Assembly: GCA_003141415.1 (NCBI GenBank) | Contig: PLLX01000035.1 | Location: 5,290-41,121 of the forward strand | Direction: 5' to 3' | DNA: 35,832 nucleotides | From: Bacteroidales bacterium | Lineage (GTDB): Bacteria > Bacteroidota > Bacteroidia > Bacteroidales > VadinHA17 | Notes under the pieces: model-generated | What the model saw: the letters and a program-made list of their open reading frames with translations, nothing else | What the model was told of the DNA's origin: nothing | The model's database searches: none | Shown: one piece after another, positions 12,093 to 34,958 of the stretch | Position numbering within the stretch: position 1 is the first letter of the stretch | Layout: each line of letters starts with the position of its first letter | Made by a program: the position numbers and the translations under genes

Positions 12093-12132
12093 TAATAACG
12101 TTTTATATTTGATGATATAAACTTTTTTGACT

Positions 12133-20245: not shown

Positions 20246-20586
20246 CCTTTGAAGAACTTACGGAATTCAAAAAGGATTTGAAAACCCTTATAAAAAAATA
20301 CAGAACACTGAACGATGATCTGGATGTAGTGAAAAAGGTACTCGATATATTACCGGATGAAAGACCTCCTTTCAGTTTTCGTATCGATAATCTAGGATTA
20401 AAAACTTGTATTATCAAAGTCAAAAAGATTGCTTGTAAAGCATTAAAAGGACGTGGAGTTAATTCAGGTTTGCGATTGGTTTATGCTTACTTCAAAGAAC
20501 AAGAAAAGATAGTTTTTATTGAACTGTATCACAAAAATGATAAGGAGAATGAGGATAAACAAAGGATTTTAAATAATTTTAAATAA
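20242..20586 (+). CDS. RelE/ParE-superfamily toxin paired with the Panacea antitoxin
   Basis: A 114-residue protein with the RelE/HigB-type fold signature. An N-terminal helical pair (MTFEELTEFKKDLKTLIKKY) leads to the beta-sheet core (PPFSFRIDNLGLKTCIIKVK, RGVNSGLRLVYAYFKEQEKI, VFIELYHKNDKENEDKQRIL). The GLRLVYAYF...IELYHKNDK segment matches the G-x-R-x-x-[YF]...IyxKxdk region of RelE-family ribosome-dependent mRNA endonucleases. Several basic residues are available (K, R and H), but I cannot name the catalytic set. The start overlaps the antitoxin stop, which gives translational coupling, and 14 bases separate it from the ubiquitin-like gene. Pairing with Panacea instead of a classical antitoxin fits the known promiscuity of that domain. 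Confidence 0.8.
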   Translation: MTFEELTEFKKDLKTLIKKYRTLNDDLDVVKKVLDILPDERPPFSFRIDNLGLKTCIIKVKKIACKALKGRGVNSGLRLVYAYFKEQEKIVFIELYHKNDKENEDKQRILNNFK

Positions 20587-20600
20587 CAAAAATTAGAAAT

Positions 20601-21080
20601 ATGGATACTCAAAACAAAGGGCAAGAAAAAGCAGTTCTGCATCTTGCAATTAATGGGAAAAATTACGAATGGCGTCAAGAATATATCACTGGTACTGAAA
20701 TTAGAAAACTTGGCAACATTCCTGCTGAAGATGAAATTTTCCTTGCTATTAAAAAGCCATGGGAAGATGAACGGATTCCTGATGATAAGCAAGTGAATCT
20801 TGCCCGTCCTGAAATTGAACACTTTTATTCAAAAGATAGGGATTTTAAAATTACACTTATTGTAAATGGCAGACCAAAACTTTGGACTGAAAAAACGATT
20901 ACTTTTGAGCAAGTCATTGTTTTAGCTTTTGGAACATATGACCCCAATCCAGCAAAGGTTTACACTGATATTTATGATAGAGGTCCACACGAGAACCCAG
21001 AAGGTTCTATGGTTAAAGGGGATAGAGTCTTTGTTAAAGATAAAATGATATTTAATGTTACAGCAACAGATAAATCTTAG
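20601..21080 (+). CDS. Tandem ubiquitin-like protein (multiubiquitin family)
   Basis: A 159-residue protein made of two beta-grasp units. The first, at about 11-77, runs LHLAINGKNYEWRQEYITG, AEDEIFLAIKKPWEDERIP and LARPEIEHFYS. The second, at about 82-156, runs ITLIVNGRPKLWTEKTITF, VLAFGTYDPNPAKVYTDIYD, and GSMVKGDRVFVKDKMIFNV ending TATDKS. This is the multiubiquitin family, which is encoded next to E1-like ThiF proteins in bacteria. It ends in Ser with no di-glycine, and no GG separates the units, so either the E1 accepts another C-terminus or processing occurs. The next gene (E1-like) begins 26 bases before its stop, which indicates tight coupling. Its role is probably as modifier or scaffold in a ubiquitin-like conjugation step tied to defence. 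Confidence 0.88.
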   Translation: MDTQNKGQEKAVLHLAINGKNYEWRQEYITGTEIRKLGNIPAEDEIFLAIKKPWEDERIPDDKQVNLARPEIEHFYSKDRDFKITLIVNGRPKLWTEKTITFEQVIVLAFGTYDPNPAKVYTDIYDRGPHENPEGSMVKGDRVFVKDKMIFNVTATDKS

Positions 21081-22233
21081 TCCTGACTTAAAGCGACTCA
21101 GAGATGAAGGATTTGAAATAGAAGTTAAATGTGGATACCTTATTGTACATCATATCCCATATGTAAATAGTATTAGGGAGGTAAAGTTTGGGAAGCTTAT
21201 CACAACCCTTACTTTGAATAATGATGTAACTATTAAGCCAGATAATCATGTTATCAATTTTATGGGAGAATTCCCATGTAATAATGACGGTTCAATTATA
21301 ACAGCGATACAGCACTCTAGTCAATTAAACCAAGCCTTGTTTGATGGATTAGTAATAAACTTCTCCTTCTCAAATAAACCACCTAATGGATATGATAATT
21401 ACTATGATAAGGTTGTGAGATATGCTGAAATAATTTCAGCACCAGCAAGGTCAATCGATAAGACAGCAACTGCAAAGACATTCAAAGTTATTGTTGACAG
21501 CGAAGATCAAACTGTATTTAATTACATCGATTCTAATTCCAGCAGAGCCAACATTCACCAACTTAATTCCAAATTCAAAGGACAAAAAATTGCGATAATT
21601 GGTTTGGGGGGAACTGGCTCTTACGTATTAGATTTGGTTGCTAAAACTCCGGTTGAAGAAATACTTCTTTTTGATTCAGATGAATTTCTTCAACATAATG
21701 CGTTTCGTTCTCCAGGGGCTGCAACTATTGAATCTTTAAATAAGAGGTTAAAGAAAGTTGATTATTATTGTGAGATTTATTCCCACATGCGAAAGGGAAT
21801 AAAACCCTTTTCTGAAAAGATAACGGAAATAAATATTGAACTTCTCCGAGGCCTTTCGTATGTATTCATTTGCATTGATAGTAATAGTGCAAGAAGCATG
21901 ATAATCTCCAACCTAAAAAAATTTGGCGTTACATTTATTGATGCCGGTCTTGGTGTTAATGTGGTTGATGAAAATCTTATAGGACAACTTAGAGTTACTG
22001 TTGGTTCGCCAGGTAAGTACAATCATATACCCAATAGAATTGGTTCTGATTCAATGGAAGATGATGAGTATGCAACTAATATTCAGATAGCAGACCTAAA
22101 CGCATTAAATGCATTAATGGCTGTGGTAAAATGGAAAAAGTTGAGTGGTTTCTATCAGGATTTGAAGCAAGAATTCAATTCAACTTACACGATCAACACA
22201 TCGCAATTAATTAACGAAGATTGTATTGAATAA
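21055..22233 (+). CDS. E1-like ThiF-family adenylyltransferase with an N-terminal DUF6791 domain
   Basis: A 392-residue protein. Residues 1-165 form the DUF6791-type N-terminal domain (INLSPDLKRLRDEGFEIEVK, YLIVHHIPYVNS, YAEIISAPARSID), which is possibly E2-related. Residues 175-370 are the Rossmann adenylation fold of ThiF/MoeB/E1, with the ATP loop IAIIGLGGTGSYVLDLV (GLGGTG 183-188), D207 in LFDSDEF, the Asn/Arg pair N215 and R218 in NAFRSPGA, and FICIDSNSARS (271-281). A CxxC zinc pair, common in ThiF, is not obvious. Candidate thioester cysteines are C239 and the near-terminal C390 (INEDCIE). It likely activates the C-terminus of the ubiquitin-like protein encoded just upstream. Its gene overlaps both neighbours, so the three proteins are probably made in fixed proportion. 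Confidence 0.88.
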   Translation: MLQQQINLSPDLKRLRDEGFEIEVKCGYLIVHHIPYVNSIREVKFGKLITTLTLNNDVTIKPDNHVINFMGEFPCNNDGSIITAIQHSSQLNQALFDGLVINFSFSNKPPNGYDNYYDKVVRYAEIISAPARSIDKTATAKTFKVIVDSEDQTVFNYIDSNSSRANIHQLNSKFKGQKIAIIGLGGTGSYVLDLVAKTPVEEILLFDSDEFLQHNAFRSPGAATIESLNKRLKKVDYYCEIYSHMRKGIKPFSEKITEINIELLRGLSYVFICIDSNSARSMIISNLKKFGVTFIDAGLGVNVVDENLIGQLRVTVGSPGKYNHIPNRIGSDSMEDDEYATNIQIADLNALNALMAVVKWKKLSGFYQDLKQEFNSTYTINTSQLINEDCIE

Positions 22234-22240
22234 AGTATAT

Positions 22241-24286
22241 ATGAGCAAAGCTTTAGATCTATCGCACATTTACAGTTTAAGAAATAATTTCACCGTAATT
22301 GGCCTAACAGGTCAAATAGGTTCAGGCTGTTCAGAAGTCGCTGAACAGTTAGTTAAAGGGTTTAATAAAAAAGATTTTGAAGACCCATGCAAAATTGGGC
22401 TTGATAAAGAGAAAGAAGTGTTTAAACACAATTCGTTTCGAAAGTATCGTATCATTTACAACTATGCAAGTATCAATTTCAAAAGCTATGCTAAAATAAA
22501 TTACAAGTGTGTATTGGTGATGTTCTTGCTTAAATATTCTTTTGATGACTTTATAGATTTTTTGGAACCTAAAGGAGAATTATCAATAGCGCTTGAGGAT
22601 TTATTTAAAAAACTTAAAACAACTGGAGCAGAGCCTAATTTTAATATTGAAATTTCGGAATTACAAACTCTTAAAGAATCTTTTAATATACTGTCAGAAA
22701 AATATAATAATATTAAGTTTCAAAGTATTGATTTATATACCTTTTATTTTACAAGTGATTTTCAACCGTTTTGTGAAAAGTTTCTCGCTGCCTTGAAAAA
22801 GAATTCGAGAATTAAACGTAACAAACTATTTCAAATCATATCCTTAAATTTAAGAAAGTCAGGAGAACCATATAAATTTTCTGAACCTTTGGCAGATAAA
22901 GCTTTTACAATCGTTGGGCTTATTAATGACATTATTATAAGTCATGAAATATTCATGAAGGAAATGCCTAAAGAAGGACAAAGCAATGAAAAACGAACTC
23001 AAATAGTAATTGATGATTTACGCAACCCTATTGAAATAATGTTTTTTAGACAACGATACGCTGCATTTTATACTGTTGCTATTAACCGGGAAGATGATTC
23101 AAGGCAGGATGCACTTTCAAATAAATATAGCACACCTGATACAAAGGAAATTCGTGAAGCTTTCTGGAAAGAGGAATATAAAGGAGGTGAAGATGACGAG
23201 TTTTACAAAGCGAATATTTCTGCATGTATTCAGCAAGCTGATATTCACATATCGTTTCTATCTAAAAAAGAAGTTGATGAACAAAATAAAAAATTAGAGA
23301 AACAAATTTCTGATTTAACGAAGTCAGAAAAGCAAGTGAATGACAATTCATCTCCTTACTTTAGTTGGAAGGAGCAACTTTTGAAATATATCTCACTAAT
23401 CAGTCATCCTGGCTTAATCCCTCCCTCTCCTGAGGAAAGGTGTATGCAAATGGCATATACAGCTAAACATAACTCGGGATGTATATCAAGACATGTTGGC
23501 GCAGCTATTACTGACGAAAATTATTCTATCAAGGCAGTTGGATGGAATACAACACCAGAAGGATTAGTCCCATGTGTTTTAAGATGTGCACACGACCTTA
23601 TAAACCCACAGATTTATTCAGACAAAAAAGCTTTTACTCCTTATGAATATGAATATGTAAGAGAAGAGGAATATGAATCCGAAACTGAACCTAAATTTCG
23701 AAACGAGTTAATAGGTAAATTTGAGAAACCTATTGAGCAAAACATAGAAATTTTGAAAGGTAGAAATGTCTGTTTTTGCTTTAAGGATATAAGAAATTCA
23801 TTTTCGAAGGATGGAAAGAATCAGGTACATACACGCTCCTTGCATGCCGAAGAAAATGCTTTTTTGCAGTTAGCAAAGTACGGAGGAAATGGAATTCAAA
23901 AAGGTAAATTATTTACAACTGCTAGTCCTTGTGAATTATGTGCCAAAAAAGCAGTTCAATTAGGTATTAATGTTATTTATTACATTGATCCATATCCTGG
24001 TATCTCTATGCAACACATTATATCAGCAAGTAGCAATGAAATTAAAGTAAGATTGTTCAATGGAGCAATTGGTAATGCATATCATTGGTTGTATGATCCA
24101 ATGATGCCATACAAAGATGAACTGACGTTATTGTTGGGAAACGAGTTTGATGATTATGCAACCCAACAAAAAAAGGATGCTGATAAATATAAAATAGATG
24201 CTGATAAGATTAGGGAAGTATCTAATGAAAAAGATTTTAAAATTGCAGAGCTGGAGCAAAGAATTAAGAAACTCGAAAAAAGATAG
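22241..24286 (+). CDS. P-loop kinase-deaminase fusion related to anti-phage dCTP deaminases
   Basis: A 681-residue protein from the ATG at 22241; a TTG at 22226 inside the E1 gene would add five residues. Residues 15-330 contain a P-loop NTPase/nucleotide kinase-like domain with the Walker-A-like loop GLTGQIGSGCS (21-31) and a later IVIDDLRNPIEIMFFRQRYA. After a charged helical linker, residues 390-620 are a zinc deaminase of the dCMP/ComE type: HNSGCISRHVGAAITD, the zinc ligand and proton shuttle in H535-A-E537 (SLHAEENAF), and P563-C564-x-x-C567 in TASPCELCAKKAV. The tail is a coiled coil (KDADKYKIDADKIREV, ELEQRIKKLEKR). This kinase-plus-deaminase architecture is that of phage-defence dCTP deaminases that drain dCTP/dUTP. 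This one is longer than those I know. Placement between an E1 and DUF6527 suggests control by ubiquitin-like modification. Confidence 0.87.
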   Translation: MSKALDLSHIYSLRNNFTVIGLTGQIGSGCSEVAEQLVKGFNKKDFEDPCKIGLDKEKEVFKHNSFRKYRIIYNYASINFKSYAKINYKCVLVMFLLKYSFDDFIDFLEPKGELSIALEDLFKKLKTTGAEPNFNIEISELQTLKESFNILSEKYNNIKFQSIDLYTFYFTSDFQPFCEKFLAALKKNSRIKRNKLFQIISLNLRKSGEPYKFSEPLADKAFTIVGLINDIIISHEIFMKEMPKEGQSNEKRTQIVIDDLRNPIEIMFFRQRYAAFYTVAINREDDSRQDALSNKYSTPDTKEIREAFWKEEYKGGEDDEFYKANISACIQQADIHISFLSKKEVDEQNKKLEKQISDLTKSEKQVNDNSSPYFSWKEQLLKYISLISHPGLIPPSPEERCMQMAYTAKHNSGCISRHVGAAITDENYSIKAVGWNTTPEGLVPCVLRCAHDLINPQIYSDKKAFTPYEYEYVREEEYESETEPKFRNELIGKFEKPIEQNIEILKGRNVCFCFKDIRNSFSKDGKNQVHTRSLHAEENAFLQLAKYGGNGIQKGKLFTTASPCELCAKKAVQLGINVIYYIDPYPGISMQHIISASSNEIKVRLFNGAIGNAYHWLYDPMMPYKDELTLLLGNEFDDYATQQKKDADKYKIDADKIREVSNEKDFKIAELEQRIKKLEKR

Positions 24287-24287
24287 T

Positions 24288-24644
24288 ATGAAGATTATCC
24301 ACAAGTTTGTTGACTTTATTCCAGAGAAAGTTGAAGAGGGAGTTTTATATATCTCAATAGAATATTGTGTAGCTGTCCACAAGTGTGTTTGCGGCTGCGG
24401 CAATGAAGTGGTAACCCCTCTGTCCCCAACAGATTGGGAACTTACGTTTGATGGCAAAAGTGTTTCACTTAGTCCATCTATTGGTAATTGGAATCTTGAA
24501 TGTAAATCTCACTACTTTATTACACGAAATAAAATTCGTCACGCCAGACGTTGGAAAGATTGGGAAATTGAGAAGGGTAGAAAAAATGACATTAATAACA
24601 AAGAAAACTATTTCAAAAAAAGTATGATTAATCATACATTATAA
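24288..24644 (+). CDS. DUF6527-family Cys/His protein of the ubiquitin-like operon
   Basis: 118 residues from the ATG at 24288, one base after the deaminase stop. A longer frame from 24198 lies inside the deaminase gene and is not the real start. The N-terminus MKIIHKFVDFIPEKVEEGV leads to a metal-binding-like cluster HKCVCGCGNEVVTPLSP (C33, C35, C37), then SVSLSPSIGNWNLECKSHYF (C72, H75). This is the DUF6527 pattern, often encoded with multiubiquitin and DUF6791-ThiF genes. The spaced Cys/His residues could hold a zinc ion. A role as E3-like adaptor, deconjugating enzyme or processing factor has been guessed for such partners, but nothing in the sequence proves one. It is the last gene of the operon. 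A 16-bp palindrome lies over its last codons. Confidence 0.85.
   Translation: MKIIHKFVDFIPEKVEEGVLYISIEYCVAVHKCVCGCGNEVVTPLSPTDWELTFDGKSVSLSPSIGNWNLECKSHYFITRNKIRHARRWKDWEIEKGRKNDINNKENYFKKSMINHTL
24623..24638. other. 16-bp perfect palindrome at the 3' end of the ubiquitin-like operon
   Basis: gtatgattaatcatac reads the same on both strands and overlaps the last codons of the DUF6527 gene. It is too short-looped and lacks a T-run, so it is a poor terminator. It may be a protein-binding site, possibly a recombination or transcription stop signal between converging operons. Confidence 0.4.
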
Positions 24645-24775: not shown

Positions 24776-25528
24776 TTATTTCTTATGTGTTTTAGCAACT
24801 CTCAAATTAAATACTGCAATCCAGCTTTCATGTTCAGTTTTAAGTATGCTAACAATGTCTTCGATTAAATCATCATTGATTGCTTCTGGTTTGCCGTGCA
24901 TAAATTCGTTGCGTTTATCCTGAATACGATTTAATAACTCTGCAACATTTTGGAAACCTAATCTATCCAAATCTAAATAGTATGAAGTTGATTTCCCAAA
25001 TAATATTTTATATAAATCATCGATTCGAGAGCTGATTGATTGATATCTTTTAAAGAGGTTCAGACGAACAGAATCTGGTAAATCTGCCATAGCCTTCTCC
25101 AATAATCGTTCAATTCGTGTTTCGAAATAGATCCAAAAAACAAGTACTATAATTGCTTTAACTGCAGGTCTTTTATCTTTGCTAAGATTGGCATATTTAT
25201 CAAATTTAGATTCTGGTCTTTCCCATTCATCTTCAATCATGTTCAAATATATATAGTCTTCATAGCGACCTTCTGCACCCATTAAAGAATTCGAAATGAT
25301 TTCAGATTCTATTTCATCTGAACTTTTAAGTTTAAATCTTTGAGGCATTGTTAACTTCTCTAGACATACAGGACAATTGCCTCTTGACTTTCTAATACCA
25401 CCACAATTTCCGCATATCGTATAATCATACCATAATGATGACCATGTGTACCCTGTGGGTAGGTTTTCAAACCAATATTTACTTTGGAACTTTTTGTCCT
25501 TATTTGTTTTACTCCTTGCACTCGTCAT
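24776..25528 (-). CDS. Zinc-ribbon protein with a HEPN-like domain
   Basis: A 250-residue soluble protein. The N-terminal zinc ribbon (about 36-60) has two CxxC pairs: C39/C42 in YTICGNCGG and C52/C55 in GNCPVCLEK. The C-terminal half (about 120-240) is helical, with VFWIYFETRIERLLEKAM, and the key box QDKRNEFMHGKPEAINDD, in which R206-x4-H211 is the catalytic motif of HEPN ribonucleases. HEPN domains with Rx4-6H cleave RNA in many toxin and defence systems, and the ribbon would supply nucleic-acid or protein binding. It converges on the ubiquitin-like operon with 131 bases between the stops, and shares no promoter with the downstream PfkB operon. It could be a separate abortive-infection gene or an accessory effector of that operon. 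The family was named from motifs only. Confidence 0.7.
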   Translation of the reverse strand: MTSARSKTNKDKKFQSKYWFENLPTGYTWSSLWYDYTICGNCGGIRKSRGNCPVCLEKLTMPQRFKLKSSDEIESEIISNSLMGAEGRYEDYIYLNMIEDEWERPESKFDKYANLSKDKRPAVKAIIVLVFWIYFETRIERLLEKAMADLPDSVRLNLFKRYQSISSRIDDLYKILFGKSTSYYLDLDRLGFQNVAELLNRIQDKRNEFMHGKPEAINDDLIEDIVSILKTEHESWIAVFNLRVAKTHKK

Positions 25529-25766: not shown

Positions 25767-26834
25767 TCAATATAAAGATCCAATACTAAACTTTTCAATT
25801 GGTTTAAAATCTTCCTTTTTATTAATAAGTGTTAATGGCGTTTTGCTACGCTGAAGCTTTCTAACTAAAGAACCTACTTGTTCTTTAGTTAAAGCATACA
25901 TCAATCCTCTCGCTCCTTCAAAAAAGCAATTTAAAGCACCTAGGGCTTGACCATATTTTAACGATTTTGATACAAATACTTCATTACGATTCTTGAATCC
26001 CTTTAACCCATTCATTGCAATTTTAGAAATAACACCGGCAGAAAACCAATCCCCTGAACCCGCTGCATCAACTACATAAGAAATTTTGTAGCTAGTAAGA
26101 TTTATCCAATTTTTTGACTTTAATTGATGACTAAATCTATATCGCAATCCCTCTTTCCCTAGGGTCTCTATTTCAAGTGGCACCCGTTGATCTGGAAATA
26201 AATCAGCATAATTATTTATTCTTTCATTTGAAAATTTAATTATATCGGCAACATTTAGACACTCTTCAAATTGTTTGTTTTCACTCATTGAAGACGGTTC
26301 GAAAAAAATAACTGCCCCTTTCCCCTTATAATATTTAGCCAGGTCAATTGATGATCTATTTACCCTATCAAAATAGAAAACAGAAGGTATAGGTGATTTT
26401 TTTATTAAGGAATCGACTTCAGTTCGTAAAACTGGCTTATATAAGGGTAACCAATCACCATTTTCTGGGTTTCTAAATTGAAATGTATGAATTGAGTTAC
26501 CATTTTTATCCCTTTTTATTCTTTGAATGATTATTGGGGTACTGCCATCAGGAGACTTAGTAATAAGCAAAGTATTCACATTCCAATCAGTTAGATCGGC
26601 TAATAATTTCTTAGAAGCATCATTGCTTTTTAATCTTGCAACAGGGAAGGCATTCCATTTAAGGAAGGAAAGAATAGTAAGGACATTCCCACAAGAACCA
26701 CCTGCAAATAGCTTTAAAGGAATTTTAGGATCTCCATTTATTACTATATCCAATGCTACCAAGCCTGCCCCGATGCATATTGGATTTTCTTTCTTTTTAT
26801 TTGTGGTTTTTTTCTTTTTATTATTACTATTCAT
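25767..26834 (-). CDS. PfkB-family sugar kinase of the SIS-HAD/PRTase operon
   Basis: A 355-residue protein. A basic, low-complexity N-terminus (KKKKTTNKKKEN) precedes the ribokinase fold. The first signature is the glycine box KLFAGGSCGNVLTILSFLKW (about 41-60). The second is VVDAAGSGDWFSAGV (254-268), which matches the DTxGAGDxF motif with Ala for Thr and Ser for Ala and with D262 as the catalytic base. PfkB enzymes phosphorylate ribose, adenosine, fructose-phosphate and similar sugars. The substrate cannot be told here. It is the last gene of a five-gene minus-strand operon and starts eight bases inside the 3' end of the preceding unknown gene. Placement with PRTase, SIS and HAD enzymes suggests that it makes a sugar phosphate for the same pathway. 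Confidence 0.85.
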   Translation of the reverse strand: MNSNNKKKKTTNKKKENPICIGAGLVALDIVINGDPKIPLKLFAGGSCGNVLTILSFLKWNAFPVARLKSNDASKKLLADLTDWNVNTLLITKSPDGSTPIIIQRIKRDKNGNSIHTFQFRNPENGDWLPLYKPVLRTEVDSLIKKSPIPSVFYFDRVNRSSIDLAKYYKGKGAVIFFEPSSMSENKQFEECLNVADIIKFSNERINNYADLFPDQRVPLEIETLGKEGLRYRFSHQLKSKNWINLTSYKISYVVDAAGSGDWFSAGVISKIAMNGLKGFKNRNEVFVSKSLKYGQALGALNCFFEGARGLMYALTKEQVGSLVRKLQRSKTPLTLINKKEDFKPIEKFSIGSLY

Positions 26835-27960
26835 AAGGATTTCCAGCTAGCCAAAGTTCAACTAGATTATTTCTTTTTAAAATATCTTCAATTATGCATT
26901 CTGCATTCTTATCTAATTCATAATCAAGAGATTCAACATGTTTTATACCGGCATTTTTACCATTTGCTCTTGCTTCATAAACAGCTAAAAACGCCCCAAT
27001 TGTTAACAGTTTACTGGAGAATACAGAAACGATAATTTTACAACCGCTCAAGATACTCAAAGATTCGTCATATCGCATTATTGCCCTCCACATTAATCTA
27101 TAAACCTGAAACGGGTTCTCTTCATGCGCATATATTATATTTTTAGGGTCAAAGCTTCCATCGTTAAATAATAAATCTTGATATTCAATAATTAATTTAT
27201 CCGTTCTTTTTAAATCTTTTGATGGAAATGGAAGTACCGGACAAATTTCTGCCGGATCAATATTTTTTCTTATAATGTCATATTGTTTTGTCTGACCCTC
27301 ACCAATCATAGCAATCCAGACTTCTTTATGTGATTTAGTTTTGGCAGTATCTATTACTCCAAGGCCATGAATGAAAATTCCATCTTCAGCCTCTCCTCGA
27401 TCCTGAATTTTTGCATCAAGTTCTGCATTTTCTGTTACGATAACATGCAAGTTCTTTTTATTAGCAGGATCGCAAGTGGAATTCCAATCAGAAATTACTT
27501 TCAACAACTTATTAATTAAAGGAAGAAAAACTCCCCTAGGCATCGCACTAATGTCAACAATAATGTCACTGTAATCTCTAAAATCCTCTTCGTTAAAAGA
27601 TTGAGTTGCGTTTATTGAAGCAATACTCTTATTGTCCTGAGATCTTTGAATTATGTTTCTCTCCGTAAATGCAGTAAGTGACTTAGAGCTTAAAAATGTA
27701 GTTAATTCCGTCAAATGTTTTTGAACAAGAGGAGAGTTTTGAGTTCCAATATCTTCTTGTTGAGTATAATATCTCAAGACGATCGTGGACTTAAGCCCTA
27801 TGGACTTGATAGAGTAGATTTTTTTAATCCCTACATTAGTCCTTGGGTCAAAACCCATACCCATGATGAATAAAATGTCTCGTTTATTTTCTCCCAGATA
27901 ACCTTCCCAGAATGGGGCAAAAGAGGGACCGGATTTTAAAAAATAGTTTTCCCAATACAT
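26827..27960 (-). CDS. Unknown 377-residue protein of the SIS-HAD/PRTase operon
   Basis: No family is recognised. The chosen ATG (27960) lies one base after the stop of the ATPase gene; a longer start at 28002 would add 14 residues (MGLKVKLKAKCIVK). The sequence begins MYWENYFLKSGPSFAPFWE and contains KRDILFIMGMGFDPRTNVG, IVLRYYTQQEDIGTQNSPL, DIIVDISAMPRGVFLPLINK and KEVWIAMIGEGQTKQYDIIR. Repeated hydrophobic strands followed by glycine-rich turns suggest a Rossmann-like alpha/beta fold, possibly two related halves. The VDISAMPRG box resembles the DITGG-like strand of ligand-sensing CARF/SAVED domains, but this is a weak impression. It overlaps the PfkB gene by 8 bases. It may be a sensor, adaptor or effector of the operon. 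Confidence 0.8.
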   Translation of the reverse strand: MYWENYFLKSGPSFAPFWEGYLGENKRDILFIMGMGFDPRTNVGIKKIYSIKSIGLKSTIVLRYYTQQEDIGTQNSPLVQKHLTELTTFLSSKSLTAFTERNIIQRSQDNKSIASINATQSFNEEDFRDYSDIIVDISAMPRGVFLPLINKLLKVISDWNSTCDPANKKNLHVIVTENAELDAKIQDRGEAEDGIFIHGLGVIDTAKTKSHKEVWIAMIGEGQTKQYDIIRKNIDPAEICPVLPFPSKDLKRTDKLIIEYQDLLFNDGSFDPKNIIYAHEENPFQVYRLMWRAIMRYDESLSILSGCKIIVSVFSSKLLTIGAFLAVYEARANGKNAGIKHVESLDYELDKNAECIIEDILKRNNLVELWLAGNPYE

Positions 27961-27961
27961 T

Positions 27962-29908
27962 TTAACTATACATTTTGCTTTGAGTTTTACCTTTAAACCC
28001 ATTTTTATACCAGCCTAATAATTCTGTTAGCTTTTTCTCCTTAAATTTCCCATTATTCATTGGTAGATTATATTTTGCACAGTACATCTTGTTTAAATAG
28101 AGCAGCATCCATGTTTTATTCTTGCAATTGTAGTTTAATTCAAATTCAATTAGGTTATAAGAAATACAATCCGCGATGCATTTAGCTAAATCATAATAGA
28201 CGTTACTTTTATCCTTTAATGCTATGTCTTTTAGGTAGGCTCTATCTGTCATCAGTATAGCAATGGCATTTATCCCAGGAGAATTCCATGCATTAGGTGT
28301 ATATGTCTCCTGTTGGCAAAATTCTCCAATCGAATCAAGAAGCATCTTTATTTTTACAAAGTTTGGTACTTTGTTTGCCAGCTCATTCCATTTGATTTTA
28401 TTAACTACATTTTTGATAATTTGTTCTTGCCTTCTCGATGATATTTCAATCTTATGATTACTGTTTACAACTCTTCTGATCTCATTATTTTTAATTTCTT
28501 CGAATAAGTGCCCAGAAATCGATAAAAACTGTTCAATATTAAAGGATGAGAGTTTGCAAACTTTTGATATTCCAAAATAGAATGGTATCTGAAACTCTTT
28601 ATTAATAAAAAGCTGCGCAGCTTGTATCACTTGAGCTTCTTGCTGTTTTATAAGTTCGTTCTCTTGTAGTAGATCATCCCCCTCAAAGCTCAATCTTTGT
28701 TGGGCCTTGTTTATATCTCTATAAAGTAAAATCTCTAAGGACCTCCATTCGAGTAATTTATCAAAAGAATCAACATTAAGTTTATCCATATTGGAGATCC
28801 AGACCTTATACCGATCAGAGGAACCATATACTTCAATTACCCTTGTCTTGACTGTTTTAATAGCTTCTTGAATTTTCTCATTATCCACTTCTTCAAAGTC
28901 TTCCATTAAATAACTAGCAAACTCTCGAGGGGTATCCAACGCAAGTGCAACTCTTCTATTGGCTACCGATTTTGCAAACTTTTCAAATGCAGAATGTTTT
29001 TTTGACCAAAATTTTTCGATATGAATTGTATTCATATCTCTTCCTTCAGTATTCCCTTCTGAAAAAAGCTCATCCATTGTTAATGCTTTGAGCCTTTCAG
29101 AAACCCAGGTGTTAACAGCTGGGCGTTTTTGTATAATAGTTGTAACCAAGCGTGTACGTTGAAATGCGGAGAGATTATGGACATCATCTAACATCACTAA
29201 AATCTTCTCCTGCAATTTCTGACCATCAATCGAGAAATTTGATGGAGCAAATAAATCAAGTGAGTATAGGGTGTCTGTTCCCTCAATTGTTCTATGCTTA
29301 TCTGTATAAACGCTGTCAATTTCTTTACAAATAATTTCTTCTTGGTCACATGCCCAATTGTATAAATCAATCCCGTTATTAATACTTCTTATTGAAACAG
29401 GTAAATTAAGATTGTTTTGAAATACAAATAAAATTCTTCTATAGTCTGCTATTGATTTAAAGCTATGGAGGACAGATATTGATTGAAGTGTAGATAATAT
29501 TATTCTAATATTAACAAGAGAGAAAAATACTCGCGCTTTTTGAGCTTCATTCAGATTCAAGAATTCAATTGACATGTATTCGTTATTGAAAGGGACTAAG
29601 GAGCCTATAACTTTAATATTTCCATCATCATCATATACTCCAATTTTTTTTAATTCAGTGTATATTTCTCTGTTATGTTCGTCATGTTTACTTGTTTCCT
29701 TTAGCTTTTTAAGTATTTGCGGTGTGAACATTTTTAATAAAGTTGTTTTACCACCACCCGGAGAACTTCTTAGAATAGTGACATTGTTCCAAATGGTGTT
29801 TTGATTAAAAATATTTAGTACTTCAGGACTAAATAAATTAAGGAACTTATCATCAAGTTCTATATATTCGGAAGCTCTTGCAAAAAATGGATTTATCTCT
29901 GTAATCAT
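27962..29908 (-). CDS. ORC/CDC6-like AAA+ ATPase of the SIS-HAD/PRTase operon
   Basis: A 648-residue protein starting MITEINPFFARASEYIELDD, with a Walker A loop SSPGGGKTTLLKMF (48-61, K54) and a Walker B motif KILVMLDDVHNLSAF (about 232-246, catalytic Asp-Asp). Between them lie extended helices, and after them a long C-terminal helical region (about 300-640) that is rich in Glu, Lys and Ile. This fits the bacterial ORC/CDC6-type ATPases that are found in predicted conflict systems together with a PRTase. Such ATPases are thought to act as sensors or switches that change state on recognising invading nucleic acid. Neither sensing nor DNA binding can be seen directly. The stop and start overlap the PRTase gene by four bases. 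Confidence 0.8.
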   Translation of the reverse strand: MITEINPFFARASEYIELDDKFLNLFSPEVLNIFNQNTIWNNVTILRSSPGGGKTTLLKMFTPQILKKLKETSKHDEHNREIYTELKKIGVYDDDGNIKVIGSLVPFNNEYMSIEFLNLNEAQKARVFFSLVNIRIILSTLQSISVLHSFKSIADYRRILFVFQNNLNLPVSIRSINNGIDLYNWACDQEEIICKEIDSVYTDKHRTIEGTDTLYSLDLFAPSNFSIDGQKLQEKILVMLDDVHNLSAFQRTRLVTTIIQKRPAVNTWVSERLKALTMDELFSEGNTEGRDMNTIHIEKFWSKKHSAFEKFAKSVANRRVALALDTPREFASYLMEDFEEVDNEKIQEAIKTVKTRVIEVYGSSDRYKVWISNMDKLNVDSFDKLLEWRSLEILLYRDINKAQQRLSFEGDDLLQENELIKQQEAQVIQAAQLFINKEFQIPFYFGISKVCKLSSFNIEQFLSISGHLFEEIKNNEIRRVVNSNHKIEISSRRQEQIIKNVVNKIKWNELANKVPNFVKIKMLLDSIGEFCQQETYTPNAWNSPGINAIAILMTDRAYLKDIALKDKSNVYYDLAKCIADCISYNLIEFELNYNCKNKTWMLLYLNKMYCAKYNLPMNNGKFKEKKLTELLGWYKNGFKGKTQSKMYS

Positions 29909-31029
29909 ATTTCTTTATGTCTTGGAACACGAGGGAATAATCCTCCAAATTTAGCATTTTCGTATGCCCACAAAATTGAAAGCGAATTATTGGGACAGTT
30001 ATGATATAATACAACAGGTAAAGCGCAACCACTAAATCCAAGCTTAACTTCACCTGTGTGCTTATCTTCTAATTCATGCCCATCATAATAAAGGTCCTTA
30101 TTACACAAATCAATTATTTGTTGATTATTAACAGTCGATATTTTGTAAGAATCCGGGATCATATGTACAATATGAAGCTCAGGAATATTTTTTAAAGAAT
30201 ATTCCTCTTTCAATTTTTGAAAATTTCCTTCAATAACTGTTTTTGCCTGCTCAGTGCATAAGTATAATACAATGTGAATTTCGAGATTCTCCAAATCAAA
30301 AACATCTTTCAAATCATCTTTGGTGTAAATGCTTTCGTACAAAGCATTAATTTTCCCCTTAAGTTTTTTTTCGGTAGTACTGTATTTCAAGAATGACGTA
30401 CCACTTGCTGAAAAATCATCAAGAAGGAAAAGAACCTTAAATTTATCTTCATCTGTATCTGGGTCTCTTTCAAGGTTCTTTTTTTGATCTGCAACTAATT
30501 CCTCTTGCATTTTTGAGGCCCTTTTTGCAGATAATTCATAAGTTTGGTATATCTGTTCATGTGAAAGTACTCCTGTATTTGATCTACGAAATATTTCAAT
30601 TCTTGCTCCATCACTCAATCCACAAAATAATGACTGTCTCAAGAGTGATTTAAATTTGGGACTATTAGAAATTAAACTAACCATGTACTCCGGAATTCCT
30701 AATTCCAAACTAACTTTATTAAATAGTATTGGTTTAATGACATCGGCATAACAACTAGAAACTAATAGATCCAATTCTGGCCCTGATATATATACTAAAT
30801 AATTTTTTACAAAATCTAAAGCGACTTTTCTGTCATTTAAATCTTCAAATTGTTTTAACCATAAGGCAAAACTTTCTATAAATCTCATCCCCGGAGAAAA
30901 CTGTTTATAATCGTCATATTTAAACTTTGCCATATTTAAAAAAAACTTTCTATTATTTGAAAGTTCCTCCGGCTCACATATTTCACTTGTAAGCTGAAGT
31001 AAAAGACCCTGCAATATTTCAGTTTTCAT
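29905..31029 (-). CDS. PRTase-CE-like phosphoribosyltransferase
   Basis: A 374-residue protein. The N-terminal half (1-150) is helical (QLTSEICEPEELSNNRKFF, ALWLKQFEDLNDRKVALDF). The PRPP-binding signature KVLFLLDDFSASGTSFLKYS (about 198-217, with D204-D205...S209-G-T-S) is the classic VxxxDDxxxSGxT loop of type I phosphoribosyltransferases. Downstream strands include LEIHIVLYLCTEQAKTVIE and ELHIVHMIPDSYKIS, and the end SGCALPVVLYHNCPNNSL may form the base pocket. It fits the PRTase-CE group, described together with ORC/CDC6 ATPases in predicted defence operons. Plausible activity is transfer of a base, or hydrolysis of a nucleotide, using PRPP. The acceptor is unknown. It overlaps both neighbours by four bases. 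Confidence 0.82.
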   Translation of the reverse strand: MKTEILQGLLLQLTSEICEPEELSNNRKFFLNMAKFKYDDYKQFSPGMRFIESFALWLKQFEDLNDRKVALDFVKNYLVYISGPELDLLVSSCYADVIKPILFNKVSLELGIPEYMVSLISNSPKFKSLLRQSLFCGLSDGARIEIFRRSNTGVLSHEQIYQTYELSAKRASKMQEELVADQKKNLERDPDTDEDKFKVLFLLDDFSASGTSFLKYSTTEKKLKGKINALYESIYTKDDLKDVFDLENLEIHIVLYLCTEQAKTVIEGNFQKLKEEYSLKNIPELHIVHMIPDSYKISTVNNQQIIDLCNKDLYYDGHELEDKHTGEVKLGFSGCALPVVLYHNCPNNSLSILWAYENAKFGGLFPRVPRHKEI

Positions 31030-32933
31030 ACCGAAAAATTAAAATAATTTTTTTTGACACTTATTCGCCGTAAATAAGACATTGTTGCTTGAGTACTTTT
31101 CCATCCATCCCTTGTAAGATTCCAGCAACTATCTGGATGGGCCGAAACATCATCAACACTTAACGAATTAGGTGTGGATAATAGTTCGTAGTCGTTTCCA
31201 GGCCATTGCCCCTTATCGCCGATTGTCAAGCAGTTCTCACTTTTGGACAATTCAATGCACTTGTTTACCACGTTCAGCTTAGATGCTTTATCCCTAACAA
31301 CTACATCTATTGAATGGCTTGATTCTAAGAGTTGCAATTCCCCATCTGAAGATACCATTACGATATTCTGAACAATCTTTTTAATCATATTCCAAATAGA
31401 TGCATCACAAGTTTCAATTGTTAGCTGAAAAGGACGTAGTTTTATTTTCAATTCCGAATATGGCAACTTTAAACTTTTTATAACGGCTTCTATGTTAGAA
31501 AGTTTTAAATTGGTTTTCAATTCTGTATTTGGGCAACTATCATCATTTAAGGAGCCAATGTTAGCACCATTATAGTAGCCAATAATAATATTCTTCCAAT
31601 ATGCTTTTGGAATTTTTGAATTACGTAAATCGGTTTTTACAGATTGTCCACGACCAGTTGCAATACCTATCTTTATTCCTGCCTTTAACAATCTTATTAA
31701 TTCCAATGATATGTCTTCTGTTAAAAAGCCAGCATATCTTCTATCATAAGAGCAGAGAGTACCATCATAATCAAACACTATTGAAGAAAATCGAGTCTTC
31801 TCTACACGATCAATAAAAGTCAAATATTTTTTTCTCCAAAAAAGTAATTCATCATTTTGCAGTTGATGGATAGAAGATTTATTTGTCTTTTTTAAAATAG
31901 CATATTCTTCAACGGGATTTAGTTTAACTTTTGAGAATGGTTTATAAAATGAAGCATATTTCAAATGATATAACTTGCTTCCAAATTCAGGTACCCCTGG
32001 CCGACCAGGATCAATTTGAAACGTTTCACCTACGGAATTAACAAGATTAAATGACTTTAGCAATAGTTCTATCGAAGAGTTGACTCCAACTTTGTCACTG
32101 GCTATTAATAACAGGGGGATGGAAGTTGGGATTAGACTAATCGTCTTTTCAGCAATTTGTTTCTCTTCAGGGGTAACAAGTGCTATTATAGCGGAGTTAT
32201 TTTCCCTTTTAGCGAACCAGTGATGACGGCCATGACCAAAATTTCGATAATCTGTAAGTAATACACTACCCAAAGCGGCCTCTGTAAATTTTGATTCAAT
32301 ATCATAAGCAATTGCAGTTGCCCAGCCACCATATAAAACAATTATGGTAGAATCAAAATTTAATTTTTTAACAAAATCACTAACTTCATATTTAAATGCG
32401 GATGTTACTTCGATATCTTTTACTTCTACACTAATTTGTCCAGAGGATTTTGCAAAAACTGAAAAGAAAGCTGTTAAAGAATTAGTTGCTAAAAATCCAT
32501 CTTTCTTCGTAGGTATATCGTATTCAATTCCTTTGCTAACAGAAAATGAATTTGCCAGCTTTGTAAGGGGAGATTCCATGCGCATACATATTGTTGTGAT
32601 GTCGCTCGCATGGTTTTGAATAGCCATTTTAAATGCAAATAATATGTCATTATTTCTTCCACTTGAGCTAATGAATAATACTTTGGCATCCTTTAACGCA
32701 TACCTTGAATAAAATAAATCTAAAGGAGTTATTGCTTTAGCTAAATTCCCAAAGTTTTGATAAATACTTGCAACAAAATGACATGCACTCAGTGAGCCTC
32801 CAGAACCTACAACGAACAATGGCTTGGTTGTATCACGAAAAATATGTTCGTAAACAGACACAGTATCCTGACTTAAAGCCCATTTTATTGTAGCAAAACT
32901 TTCTTCAATTTCTTTTTTAAACGGTTTCCCCAT
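31026..32933 (-). CDS. SIS (sugar isomerase)-HAD phosphatase fusion protein
   Basis: A 635-residue two-enzyme fusion. Residues 30-330 form a SIS domain with the phosphosugar loops VVGSGGSLSACHF (43-47 GSGGS) and SSSGRNNDIL (89-92), plus FTEAALG. Residues 385-620 form a HAD phosphatase with a C2-type cap: motif I D388-x-D390 in FDYDGTLCSY, T426 in GIATGRGQSV, K549 in VRDKASKLN, and the motif IV acids in IGDKGQWPGNDYE (D573, D581). The DGELQLL strand also fits the Cof/PMM-like subgroup. A SIS isomerase plus phosphatase would remodel a sugar phosphate. It is the first gene of the five-gene minus-strand operon, with PRTase, ATPase, unknown and PfkB genes downstream, so it could supply or destroy a ribose-like substrate. 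The natural substrate is unknown. Confidence 0.88.
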   Translation of the reverse strand: MGKPFKKEIEESFATIKWALSQDTVSVYEHIFRDTTKPLFVVGSGGSLSACHFVASIYQNFGNLAKAITPLDLFYSRYALKDAKVLFISSSGRNNDILFAFKMAIQNHASDITTICMRMESPLTKLANSFSVSKGIEYDIPTKKDGFLATNSLTAFFSVFAKSSGQISVEVKDIEVTSAFKYEVSDFVKKLNFDSTIIVLYGGWATAIAYDIESKFTEAALGSVLLTDYRNFGHGRHHWFAKRENNSAIIALVTPEEKQIAEKTISLIPTSIPLLLIASDKVGVNSSIELLLKSFNLVNSVGETFQIDPGRPGVPEFGSKLYHLKYASFYKPFSKVKLNPVEEYAILKKTNKSSIHQLQNDELLFWRKKYLTFIDRVEKTRFSSIVFDYDGTLCSYDRRYAGFLTEDISLELIRLLKAGIKIGIATGRGQSVKTDLRNSKIPKAYWKNIIIGYYNGANIGSLNDDSCPNTELKTNLKLSNIEAVIKSLKLPYSELKIKLRPFQLTIETCDASIWNMIKKIVQNIVMVSSDGELQLLESSHSIDVVVRDKASKLNVVNKCIELSKSENCLTIGDKGQWPGNDYELLSTPNSLSVDDVSAHPDSCWNLTRDGWKSTQATMSYLRRISVKKNYFNFSV

Positions 32934-33140: not shown

Positions 33141-33316
33141 CAAATAAAACTTATTTTGCGCTCAAAGTGATCCAGGATAACTAATAGCGCGTCTATCCGG
33201 TAATCCAGCGTTCCTTTCTCGATCTGACTTATCCCAAAGTCGCTTCGTAGATCTTTACCGAGCTCCTCGTTCCGCCTTCTCTCCTCCCCTGTAAAATTTG
33301 TATTAAAGTATCTTTT
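33140..33316 (-). pseudogene. XRE regulator copy with an internal in-frame deletion
   Basis: The minus-strand frame reads KRYFNTNFTGEERRR, ..., SDFGISQIEKGTLDYRIDA, then LLVILDHFERKISFI and stop. The intact gene at 35146-35394 encodes NFNTNLTKQERERI, ..., GISQKELAFKVGVSPARITQ, IEKGTLDYRIDT, LIVILDHFGRKIGFI. The copy lacks the segment between GISQ and IEKG, about 16 residues covering the recognition helix of the helix-turn-helix, without a frame shift. No start codon remains, because its 5' end runs into the last codons of the AbiEii gene. It is a dead or dominant-negative form. It is clearly a tandem-type duplicate of the gene 2 kb away. Confidence 0.85.
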
Positions 33317-34157
33317 TAAAAAGGGTTAATAATTCATTTTTTACAGTTTCAAAATCAGGCAATTCTCCTGTTATCTGATGTGCCAGACTATTCTTCCAAG
33401 CTGCTGACAAATGTTTGTCATTTTCTGAGTTTATCAATTGTTCTACTGAGCTAAATGAATGTCCTTTAAATGCAAGTTTCTTATGAAATGCATCAGCTAT
33501 AAGTTTATAGTCAAGTTCCGGAAAGTGTTTTGAAAGATACCAGATATCATAAAAATCTCGTGGAGCAGTATAAGACCGCTGGATTAATGAACGTATCTTT
33601 TCAGCCAGAACTTCTTCAATACTATAGCAAGGGATCTGTAAAGCATTTTCTGTAAGTTTATCTGAATAAGAATGGACAACATCTCTGTATGATACAGTGA
33701 ACAATATCAATTCATATAGAATTATCTCAATTTTTACTTTGGTCTGCCAGCGTTGTGTCGCAGGTGGAGAATCGTTGTGTGGATGGTCGGAACCCCAGAA
33801 TTTGATTATTGCTTCGTATCCTGTAAGCTTATCTTTAAATTTTAATTCTTTCAAAGATTCGATGTGTGTGGGCATCTCAACCCTTTGTTTTAAAAAGGCC
33901 GAGATGTTATCCAAATGTTTCCCGGTAAATATGAAATCCTTATCCGTTGAAGTAAAGTCGAGATCTTCTGAAAATCGATAATCCCGAATGTAGCATTTTT
34001 TCAAACAGGTACCTCCTTTGAAAATCAGCTTTTGTCTAAGTTCCGGTATCGAGAAAATAGCATCAATGAAGTGCCCTAACGCCCAATCTTTATCAATAGT
34101 GCTTTTTACTACTCCTTTTTGTGCTGCGATAGTGACTATTTCTTTTTGTAAGATCAT
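33303..34157 (-). CDS. abiEii: AbiEii-type nucleotidyltransferase toxin
   Basis: A 284-residue protein of the nucleotidyltransferase AbiEii/AbiGii family. Motif I is KGGTCLKKCY (47-56) with the acidic pair D65-x-D67 in RFSEDLDF. Motif II is the KxKIE-like stretch WQTKVKIEIILYELI (about 135-150). The conserved box EVLAEKIRSLIQRSYTAPRD followed by FYDIWYLSKH (about 185-210) is diagnostic. The toxin uses NTPs to modify tRNA or other targets and stop growth. Its ATG directly follows the AbiEi stop (34158), so the pair is co-translated, and it is neutralised by AbiEi. Its 3' end merges with the damaged XRE duplicate, which suggests recombination there. The length is normal. Confidence 0.9.
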   Translation of the reverse strand: MILQKEIVTIAAQKGVVKSTIDKDWALGHFIDAIFSIPELRQKLIFKGGTCLKKCYIRDYRFSEDLDFTSTDKDFIFTGKHLDNISAFLKQRVEMPTHIESLKELKFKDKLTGYEAIIKFWGSDHPHNDSPPATQRWQTKVKIEIILYELILFTVSYRDVVHSYSDKLTENALQIPCYSIEEVLAEKIRSLIQRSYTAPRDFYDIWYLSKHFPELDYKLIADAFHKKLAFKGHSFSSVEQLINSENDKHLSAAWKNSLAHQITGELPDFETVKNELLTLFKKIL

Positions 34158-34958
34158 TTAGTATTGCTTGTTACAAATATCCATAATTTCTTCGCGACTA
34201 ATGTTTAACCTTAACCTCCAGTCATTTACAAATTCTCCATTGTCGGTTCCTGCCGGGTCAAATATATTGTACTTTTTGTTTATTTGCTGCTTAGCGTACC
34301 TAATGAAGTTTTTTAAGCCTTTCTTATCAAGTAACTCAGCCAAGAAGCCCATACGCTTGGTTGCTGCAATGTTGTTGATAGCTGTACAATAGGTTATCAT
34401 TTTTTCGCTATTGAGTTTTGCCTGGTTGAAAGCACGGATAAGCTCGGCATATCCTCCGCAGTGTTCGGGTAAGTCAAAACAGTCCACAATGGTCTTTTCG
34501 ATATCGGTAATCCAATATTTTCTATTGCCCTGTCCCTGTGTAAGTATTCCGGTAATTTTGGAGGCAGCTACATTGACGAACTTATATGAAGTCCCGAATA
34601 CTGTTTTATTCCTCTTAGGCTTTGAGGTTTGAATAAACACATTATTGGGAAACTGTTCGGTAAGCCCATGAGCATTCAGTGCAGACCAATAGGCAATAGC
34701 CCCGGAATTGCCAATAAAGCATCCTATTATTTTTTCGTCTGTGAAATTTGCACGGCAGTATTTGCCCCGTTCAATCCTGGAGAGTATTTTTTTATGAACT
34801 AAATTCTCTACCAGTTCATTTATTTCAATAAATTGCTGGCTGAATTTCTTCTTAAGGTCATCCAATGTGAAAATATCCAGTTCATAATCGTCTAATGACA
34901 GCATAAAATCAATCTGTCGCTGGTTCAGATTCTCTGATATGTATGTGCTTCTTGCCAT
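34158..34958 (-). CDS. abiEi: AbiEi-type antitoxin/repressor
   Basis: A 266-residue protein starting MARSTYISENLNQRQIDFML. The winged-helix-like N-terminal segment (ELDIFTLDDLKKKFSQQFIE, INELVENLVHKKILSRIERG, KYCRAN) leads to the AbiEi antitoxin domain with GNSGAIAYWSALNAHGLTEQ and NRKYWITDIEKTIVDCFDLP (HCGGYAELIRAF). This is the antitoxin of the type IV AbiE system. It represses its own promoter by binding inverted repeats and it counteracts AbiEii without forming a stable complex. The near-perfect palindrome at 34975-34999 lies 16 bases before its start and is the expected operator. The AbiEii gene follows without a gap. Confidence 0.9.
   Translation of the reverse strand: MARSTYISENLNQRQIDFMLSLDDYELDIFTLDDLKKKFSQQFIEINELVENLVHKKILSRIERGKYCRANFTDEKIIGCFIGNSGAIAYWSALNAHGLTEQFPNNVFIQTSKPKRNKTVFGTSYKFVNVAASKITGILTQGQGNRKYWITDIEKTIVDCFDLPEHCGGYAELIRAFNQAKLNSEKMITYCTAINNIAATKRMGFLAELLDKKGLKNFIRYAKQQINKKYNIFDPAGTDNGEFVNDWRLRLNISREEIMDICNKQY

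Follow-up and report, generated by a model that had tools for sequence, protein, structure and literature searches.

The window considered here is a stretch of 35,832 nucleotides from a Bacteroidales bacterium (VadinHA17; GenBank assembly GCA_003141415.1, contig PLLX01000035.1, positions 5,290 to 41,121), and its subject of interest is a block of five long minus-strand open reading frames (ORFs) at 25767-32933, arranged in the order SIS-HAD, phosphoribosyltransferase (PRTase), ATPase, CARF6, and PfkB. From the letters alone, the original prediction had taken this block to be a single sugar-phosphate or phosphoribosyl pyrophosphate (PRPP) pathway packaged as a conflict system. The five genes, together with the evidence for each assignment, are as follows (aa, amino acids; AF2, AlphaFold2).

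31026..32933, minus strand, 635 aa: gene 1, SIS-HAD (Pfam/NCBIfam, PDB profile match, conserved residues).
29905..31029, minus strand, 374 aa: gene 2, PRTase-CE, predicted phosphoribosyltransferase effector (PF24390, PADLOC, residues, AF2).
27962..29908, minus strand, 648 aa: gene 3, ORC-CDC6-like AAA+/STAND-type ATPase, predicted sensor or gate (PF24389, Walker residues).
26827..27960, minus strand, 377 aa: gene 4, CARF6, predicted nucleotide sensor (PADLOC CARF6, AF2, residues).
25767..26834, minus strand, 355 aa: gene 5, PfkB-family sugar kinase (PF00294, structure profile, residues).

The ORF of gene 4 extends over 26827-28002 (391 aa), and the ATG at 27960, giving the 377-aa form, is the start favored by homologs. 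With this start, the successive junctions are a 4-base overlap, a 4-base overlap, a 1-base gap, and an 8-base overlap, in line with the earlier description of five single-strand genes that overlap or abut. The packing is equally tight in relatives, in which, with longest-ORF starts, the genes overlap or lie within 30 bp of each other in 77/78 SIS-PRTase, 77/78 PRTase-ATPase, 76/77 ATPase-CARF6, and 56/71 CARF6-PfkB pairs. The block is confirmed as a real, co-directional, overlapping, and conserved unit.

A scan with the SIS-HAD alignment of 84,980 species genomes produced 284 relatives, the best 80 of which were kept; because of this choice of query, the 80-locus set is conditioned on SIS-HAD. 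As judged by five protein profiles, all five genes are present in 71 of the 80 best loci and collinear on a single strand in 70 (SIS>PRTase>ATPase>CARF6>PfkB), which bears on the question, raised at the outset, of which genes travel together. PfkB is inverted in one locus (L040; loci are given L numbers throughout), and the remaining 9 of the 80 loci reach a contig end less than 6 kb past the SIS gene. According to the record titles, the hosts of these 80 loci include Bacteroidota, Chloroflexota, Nostoc, Planctomycetes, myxobacteria, Acidobacteria, Nitrospirae, Armatimonadetes, and Proteobacteria. In 10 of the 71 complete loci, from rumen-type Bacteroidales, PfkB is located 1.3-2.6 kb downstream, and an AbiE-like pair fills the gap in several of them.

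A search of 296 same-phylum genomes with this CARF6 model gave a match in the window's own genome only. Among 72,556 plasmid records, CARF6 is found in 17 and SIS-HAD in 18, all of the 17 being among the 18. Of these 18 records, 16 were examined, and the system is borne by 15 of them, which come from Alpha- and Betaproteobacteria and one actinobacterium (it is broken in L018, and L013 is without PfkB), the sixteenth being L019, discussed below. On the Rhizobium plasmid of L018 (4882-12370), the whole system is broken, with a NADAR gene still adjoining. Neighbor genes of the relatives include restriction and transposition genes; in 100 loci, the commonest neighbor labels, which were read by eye unless annotation or Pfam names a member of the cluster, are integrase-like (13), AbiEii-like (12), RHE_PE00001 (12), NADAR (9), serine recombinase-like (8), HsdM-like (7), and HsdR-like (6). 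The five-gene system is patchy and mobile, and the view that it is a packaged conflict system and not a core sugar cluster is upheld by this plasmid-borne distribution and by the integrase, AbiE, restriction, and transposition genes around it. A phage-encoded origin is unsupported: SIS-HAD has no match in 50,697 phage records, although three IMG/VR contigs carry it, and no relative turned up in a single-protein viral scan.

The same evidence makes it hardly credible that the operon is an ordinary sugar catabolism cluster. It is true that SIS, HAD, and PfkB are catabolic folds and that a distant lone SIS-HAD protein (L019, 8131-9825) resides within a sugar ATP-binding cassette (ABC) transporter cluster, but this protein, although it retains the HAD residues, has lost the active-site residues of SIS and is not accompanied by the other four genes of the system, whereas the five-gene unit has a patchy distribution and is mobile. 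No matching transporters stand beside the operon in the window, and catabolism is already contradicted by the gene set.

Catalytic residues were counted in 88-98 members per family, with L001-L003, L018, L019, L104-L106, and short pieces excluded. Given that the catalytic positions hardly vary across relatives, all five proteins appear to be selected as working proteins. In hidden Markov model searches, gene 2 matches PRTase-CE (PF24390, 1.6e-23, 84.4 bits) and gene 3 matches the ORC-CDC6-like family (PF24389, 9.7e-25, 87.7 bits), both far above the curated cut-off of 27 bits; the ATPase is indeed of the kind that is paired with PRTase-CE, as had been proposed. The PRTase also matches the retron III-A PRTase of PADLOC (PRTase_III-A, 1.7e-18), it has no match to the NCBIfam DS32 antiphage PRTase model (E 0.85), and a PDB sequence search returned a weak orotate PRTase match (E 0.15). 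Its PRPP-loop residues D204-D205 and G210, plus H343, N344, and N347, are found in 96/96 members, and the AF2 model (predicted local distance difference test, pLDDT, 94.6) presents a helical N-domain and a strand-then-loop arrangement at both the predicted pyrophosphate and PRPP loops. Judging from sequence, the protein is predicted to transfer phosphoribosyl from PRPP.

In the ATPase, the Walker A residues G51, G53, and K54 and the acidic D241 are invariant (95/95), and D242 is retained in 92/95, while its PDB sequence search gave P-loop matches only. The family adjoins PRTase, CARF6, and methyltransferase genes, not replication genes, which speaks against a conventional replication factor. 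Gene 4 had been regarded as a protein without a recognized family, a point on which the original prediction has to be corrected: no Pfam or NCBIfam family matched and the PDB sequence search found nothing, but the PADLOC CARF6 model (PDLC01910) matches over the full length at 2.4e-95 (residues 15-391 of the 391-aa form). In the structure prediction, which had been proposed for this protein, the AF2 model (pLDDT 94.5) contains two Rossmann-like halves of alternating strands and helices at ~27-192 and 210-375, as read from the listed elements, where the name of the CARF6 model implies three CARF domains. Because of the full-length CARF6 match and these two halves, the 377-aa protein is a predicted nucleotide sensor. 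Residues G36, D38, D136, P244, and E280 are present in 93/93 members, and PADLOC also includes CARF6 fused to kinase and AAA domains.

Given that PADLOC catalogs CARF6 among CARF families, the system might be a type III CRISPR accessory in which CARF6 responds to cyclic oligoadenylate produced by Cas10, but we consider this very improbable. No match to Cas10 was obtained in the own genome, which is 82% complete, and a search of 50 host genomes found none in 40, any match in 10, and a match above the cut-off in 1, with matches in 7 of 14 control genomes; dependence on Cas10 is rejected on these grounds. Moreover, in the loci examined, the system is plasmid-borne and adjoins AbiE and restriction genes, not cas genes.

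The sugar enzymes are the products of genes 1 and 5. For gene 1, the Pfam matches are HAD Hydrolase_3 (4e-8) and SIS (0.003, below the Pfam cut-off), and a SIS profile built from 16 relatives matches NagB-II/GlmS-type SIS structures in the PDB at 1e-7. The closest PDB structure to the SIS half is the glucosamine-6-phosphate deaminase NagB-II, the alignment spanning the catalytic Glu and the His-Gly motif. GSGGS is conserved, E218, R230, H234, and H237 occur in 98/98 members and K215 in 89/98; of these active-site positions, we take K215, E218, and H234 to be equivalent to K485/E488/H504 of GlmS. In the HAD part, D388, D390, R428, and D573 are found in 98/98 and K552 in 96/98. The protein is thus predicted to be a double phosphosugar isomerase/deaminase fold (GlmS/NagB-II type) fused to an HAD-IIB phosphatase, with the predicted function of a sugar-phosphate isomerase-deglycase plus phosphatase. 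The PfkB protein matches PF00294 at 9e-7, its profile has fructokinase/ketohexokinase as the closest structures, and G45, G46, N50, G259, G261, and D262 are retained in 88/88. No PADLOC model matches the SIS-HAD, ATPase, or PfkB of the window.

The distances between loci separate these five proteins into two groups. In 84 loci with all five genes, the pairwise-distance correlations are 0.955 for PRTase-ATPase, 0.955 for PRTase-CARF6, 0.964 for ATPase-CARF6, and 0.929 for SIS-PfkB, as compared with 0.70-0.74 for the cross-module pairs, and for no pair did any of 200 permutations attain the observed correlation. On several plasmids (L004, L006, L009-L012, L014), the arrangement of the trio relative to the SIS-PfkB pair is altered, and trio genes are present in two or more copies in L009 and L012. 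The system consists of two modules, PRTase+ATPase+CARF6 and SIS-HAD+PfkB. The linear sugar-phosphate or PRPP pathway of the original prediction fits less well than such a division, because the PRTase co-varies more with the ATPase and CARF6 and occurs without the sugar enzymes.

The latter is evident when 395 same-phylum and 398 Pseudomonadota genomes are surveyed for PRTase-CE, a census in which 34 loci were examined. The first set comprised 16 PF24390 matches and the second locus of the own genome, the weakest over-cut-off matches (E ~1e-6 to 1e-5) being excluded, and the second comprised 17 of 18 matches, the 18th being L085, which was already in the five-gene set. PRTase-CE occurs with a retron-type reverse transcriptase (RT) in 17 of the 34, is paired with NADAR in 5, and stands with NADAR beside a DUF1156/methylase-like protein in 2; a further 3 loci have the ATPase, CARF6, and a DNA methyltransferase (L111, L142, L179), 4 are of the SIS-HAD type (L184, L188, L189, L190), and 3 are fusions, namely with an OLD-like TOPRIM (L178), an HD domain protein (L149), and an AAA protein (L143). 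Since PRTase-CE works with other partners elsewhere, it does not need the sugar enzymes. CARF6 is present in all 7 census loci that have the ATPase.

One of these loci belongs to the own genome, whose second trio (L111, 1223-6509 of contig C122) consists of a methyltransferase (N6_N4_Mtase, 3e-15), PRTase-CE, the ORC-CDC6-like ATPase (1e-129), and CARF6 (PDLC01914, 1e-110), followed by a 1947-aa protein matching PADLOC PDC-S37. When 292 and 195 further genomes were searched for the ATPase family, six matches were obtained, two of which are known five-gene loci. The other four are a methyltransferase-PRTase-ATPase-CARF6 locus (L197), a methyltransferase with a protein-kinase/ATPase fusion and CARF6 but no PRTase (L199), a calcineurin-like phosphoesterase-ATPase-CARF6 locus, also without PRTase (L198), and a match with neither PRTase nor CARF6 (L200). 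From the two censuses, it appears that ATPase and CARF6 are the steadiest pair, that PRTase is the usual effector, and that a third slot is taken by a DNA methyltransferase or by the sugar enzymes.

The occupant of this third slot invites comparison with self-marking. In such a scheme, SIS-HAD/PfkB, like the methyltransferase of the sister systems, would write or trim a self mark (a sugar-derived nucleotide or base mark), and the ATPase would check it before freeing the PRTase. The DNA methyltransferase fills the partner slot in L111, L142, L179, and L197 and, without PRTase, in L199, and no relative of the L111/L142 enzyme is found in 100 five-gene-type loci, only that methyltransferase type having been searched among them. 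Because of this restricted search, and because the operon is without a glycosyltransferase to place a sugar mark on DNA, we rate the scheme as quite improbable.

A different clue to the sugar module comes from NADAR. NADAR hydrolyzes ADP-ribose off the guanine amino group and acts as an antitoxin; E. coli YbiA, a NADAR protein, additionally acts as an N-glycosidase on riboflavin intermediates, and its gene lies in an operon with ybiB, coding for a predicted DNA-binding phosphoribosyltransferase (PMC11543638, PMC11125620). NADAR stands directly after PRTase-CE in L144-L148, from Bacteroidota-sample genomes (Pfam, 5/5), and PRTase-CE is immediately upstream in 2 of 4 examined NADAR plasmid records (Methylobacterium and Vibrio algicola; L201, L202), the other two having a Dam-like methyltransferase in one case and a protein lacking a Pfam match in the other. 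The two-gene combination of PRTase-CE and NADAR is itself a candidate toxin-antitoxin pair.

In the five-gene type, NADAR is associated with the absence of PfkB. Of 104 loci, 6 did not have a complete core and 4 were located at contig ends; with these removed and the broken genes of L018 counted as present, 94 loci could be scored, of which 81 have PfkB only, 10 have both, 3 have NADAR only, and none has neither. NADAR is thus found in 3/3 PfkB-less versus 10/91 PfkB-bearing loci (Fisher p 0.002, uncorrected for kinship). Its gene overlaps the SIS-HAD start by 4 bases in L013 and L106 and lies 6 bases upstream in L190. The window itself has no NADAR.

Two further readings have to be weighed against these partner swaps. 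In the first, PRTase, SIS, HAD, and PfkB would act serially to build a modified nucleotide or phosphosugar for CARF6, with SIS serving as an Amadori isomerase (compare TrpF, which follows TrpD, and HisA, which follows HisG) and the ATPase starting synthesis upon infection. All four enzymes retain their active sites, a ligand source is needed because a CARF sensor is present while the Cas10 search had no match in the own and 40 of 50 host genomes, and the PRTase and HAD enzymes of the Ter system have been proposed to produce a nucleoside-like signal (PMC7824862). Such a pathway is nonetheless unlikely, as the PRTase co-varies with the ATPase and CARF6, not with SIS and PfkB, and PfkB can be replaced by NADAR, a family of N-glycosidases; in addition, CARF6 and the ATPase occur with a methyltransferase or phosphoesterase in the absence of sugar enzymes, and the ligand there must therefore be independent of SIS, HAD, and PfkB.

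In the second, an activated PRTase would burn PRPP, or run in reverse on nucleotides, and starve the cell, with SIS-HAD and PfkB reworking the pentose phosphates. Depletion is a common abortive strategy, the acidic pair of the PRPP loop is invariant (96/96), and PfkB weakly matches a ribose-1-phosphate kinase model (1e-8, far below the cut-off). This reading does not account for the pairing of PRTase-CE with NADAR, which erases ribosyl-amine adducts, or for the ability of NADAR to replace PfkB, and we regard depletion as distinctly unlikely.

The simplest account of the partner swaps is that PRTase-CE is an amine-phosphoribosylating effector and that the third module handles the result. We therefore favor, tentatively, a mobile defense (conflict) system in which the PRTase phosphoribosylates an amine-bearing target and the sugar enzymes or NADAR form the undo side. 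The starting points are computed from the loci, namely, the composition of the gene set, its division into two modules, the conservation of the active sites, the partner swaps, and the PRTase-CE/NADAR link. PRTase-CE would move 5-phosphoribose from PRPP onto an amine, most likely of a nucleobase in nucleic acid or of a nucleotide, and the infected cell would be arrested. The ORC-CDC6-like ATPase and CARF6 would restrain the PRTase and release it upon a trigger, which may be either DNA or a ligand of the nucleotide type. The adduct would be stripped by SIS-HAD and PfkB, with the N-glycosidase NADAR assisting them or taking their place: NADAR would hydrolyze the N-glycoside, and the HAD phosphatase, PfkB kinase, and GlmS/FrlB-like SIS would clear a rearranged (Amadori, ribulosamine) adduct, comparable to FrlD/FrlB on fructoselysine. 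A ribulosamine 5-phosphate phosphatase activity would presumably fit the HAD domain. The methyltransferase of the sister systems could shield the same amines. That the system defends against phage is very probable, and PRTase-CE is probably its toxic part; the complete chain, including the amine target and a repair role for SIS-HAD and PfkB, is a conjecture in which we have less than even confidence.

Some precedents exist for the individual steps. The FrlD kinase and FrlB, a homolog of the GlmS isomerase domain, deglycate Amadori compounds (PMC5270733), and in the related Fra pathway, lack of the deglycase makes the phosphorylated intermediate toxic (PMC4941530). PRTases have been proposed as retron and DprA-linked effectors whose mode of action is unknown (PMC9122126, PMC12548924).

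Several observations weigh against this interpretation. Catalysis by PRTase-CE, its target, its toxicity, and the link of SIS-HAD to an Amadori adduct are all steps that we infer. The best matches of the SIS profile are NagB-II deaminases, without any named deglycase, and those of PfkB are fructokinases. The strict PRPP-loop pattern is present in just 9/17 retron and 5/7 NADAR-linked PRTases, and the C-terminal HN-P-N motif is mostly absent from them; the catalytic state of PRTase-CE may therefore vary by context. The ATPase and CARF6 are also found without PRTase (L198, L199). NADAR is absent from 81/94 loci and therefore cannot be a general antidote, and the PfkB/NADAR swap may represent just two events, because L013 and L190, two of the three PfkB-less loci, look related.

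The proposed scheme can be compared with several known systems. The window shares its genes 2-4 with the PRTase-CE, ORC-CDC6-like, and CARF6 families, and the same trio occurs with a DNA methyltransferase elsewhere in its own genome, but in the present system, SIS-HAD and PfkB accompany the trio, with one fixed order in 70/80 loci. Its PRTase is related to that of retron type III-A (RT, winged helix, and PRTase), as seen from the PRTase_III-A match, yet an RT profile found no retron RT in 100 five-gene-type loci, the window included. As to restriction-modification-like systems, a search of the 100 loci for methyltransferases of the L111/L142 type, the one type covered, found none. As in DarT1-NADAR, NADAR stands beside a ribosyl-transferring enzyme, namely PRTase-CE alone in 5 loci and in 13/94 five-gene-type loci; in contrast, the writer here would use PRPP instead of NAD+, no ADP-ribosyltransferase was identified, and the window is without NADAR. 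With FrlD/FrlB (FraD/FraB), it has in common a sugar kinase and a GlmS-isomerase-like SIS (PMC5270733), the Glu and His positions being retained in the window protein; however, this SIS is fused to an HAD phosphatase, tied to an effector, and located outside a transporter operon, and its deglycase role is a prediction from sequence. Finally, the Ter stress system combines PRTase and HAD enzymes with ligand-binding proteins around a proposed nucleoside-like signal (PMC7824862), but no TerB/TerC/TerD-type partners were identified among the scanned window proteins.

Not everything in this set is new. The parts are already cataloged: Pfam has PRTase-CE and the ORC-CDC6-like family, PADLOC has CARF6, and PRTase effectors are on record from retrons. 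Neither the five-gene set nor the combination of PRTase-CE with NADAR nor the PfkB/NADAR swap was found described in open-license PMC full text, a body of literature that leaves out a 2020 CARF classification and a 2020 conflict-system survey. The PRTase-ATPase-CARF6 trio is likely to have been described in one or other of these two papers, and an earlier description of the five-gene set in them is possible. The chemistry, as predicted, is possibly new.

PRTase effectors recur in retrons and other defense systems, and their mode of action was still called unknown in 2022 (PMC9122126). The swaps among retron RT, NADAR, amino-methyltransferase, and SIS-HAD with PfkB lead to a testable guess about their chemistry, a phosphoribosyl adduct on an amine. 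A bolder and rather doubtful extension is that PRTase-CE is a PRPP-fueled counterpart of DarT that 5-phosphoribosylates the exocyclic amine of nucleobases, an effector common to retrons, NADAR pairs, methyltransferase systems, and the five-gene system, with a deglycation repair line (HAD, PfkB, SIS, NADAR) built in here. If this were true, it would be the first enzymatic glycation/deglycation cycle serving as immune weapon and antidote. The five-gene system would bring glycation repair enzymes into immunity, and its operon offers a place to seek the ligand of CARF6, a CARF family that occurs here mostly without Cas10.

The surroundings of the operon should also be mentioned. The window is a defense island of a Bacteroidota-like genome with type IX secretion system (T9SS) sorting domains, and an integrase is present. 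An AbiEi/AbiEii pair is located directly upstream of the operon (33303-34958); in other genomes, too, AbiE-like pairs flank the system or lie within it, their position in the rumen-type Bacteroidales being between CARF6 and PfkB. Immediately downstream, a minus-strand 250-aa ORF (24776-25528) has no Pfam, PADLOC, or NCBIfam match. It is followed by a plus-strand operon at 19442-24644 encoding a SocA/Panacea helix-turn-helix (HTH) protein, a multi-ubiquitin protein, a DUF6791-ThiF (E1-like) protein, and a 686-aa dCTPase-like protein (PADLOC dCTPase, 1.6e-122) with a C-terminal deaminase, a combination of ubiquitin-like conjugation and nucleotide deamination in one system. A TIR_2/ThsB-like TIR protein is encoded at 12127-12819, and a 2844-aa SpvB/RHS/FG-GAP surface-type protein with Ig-like domains occupies 1148-9682.

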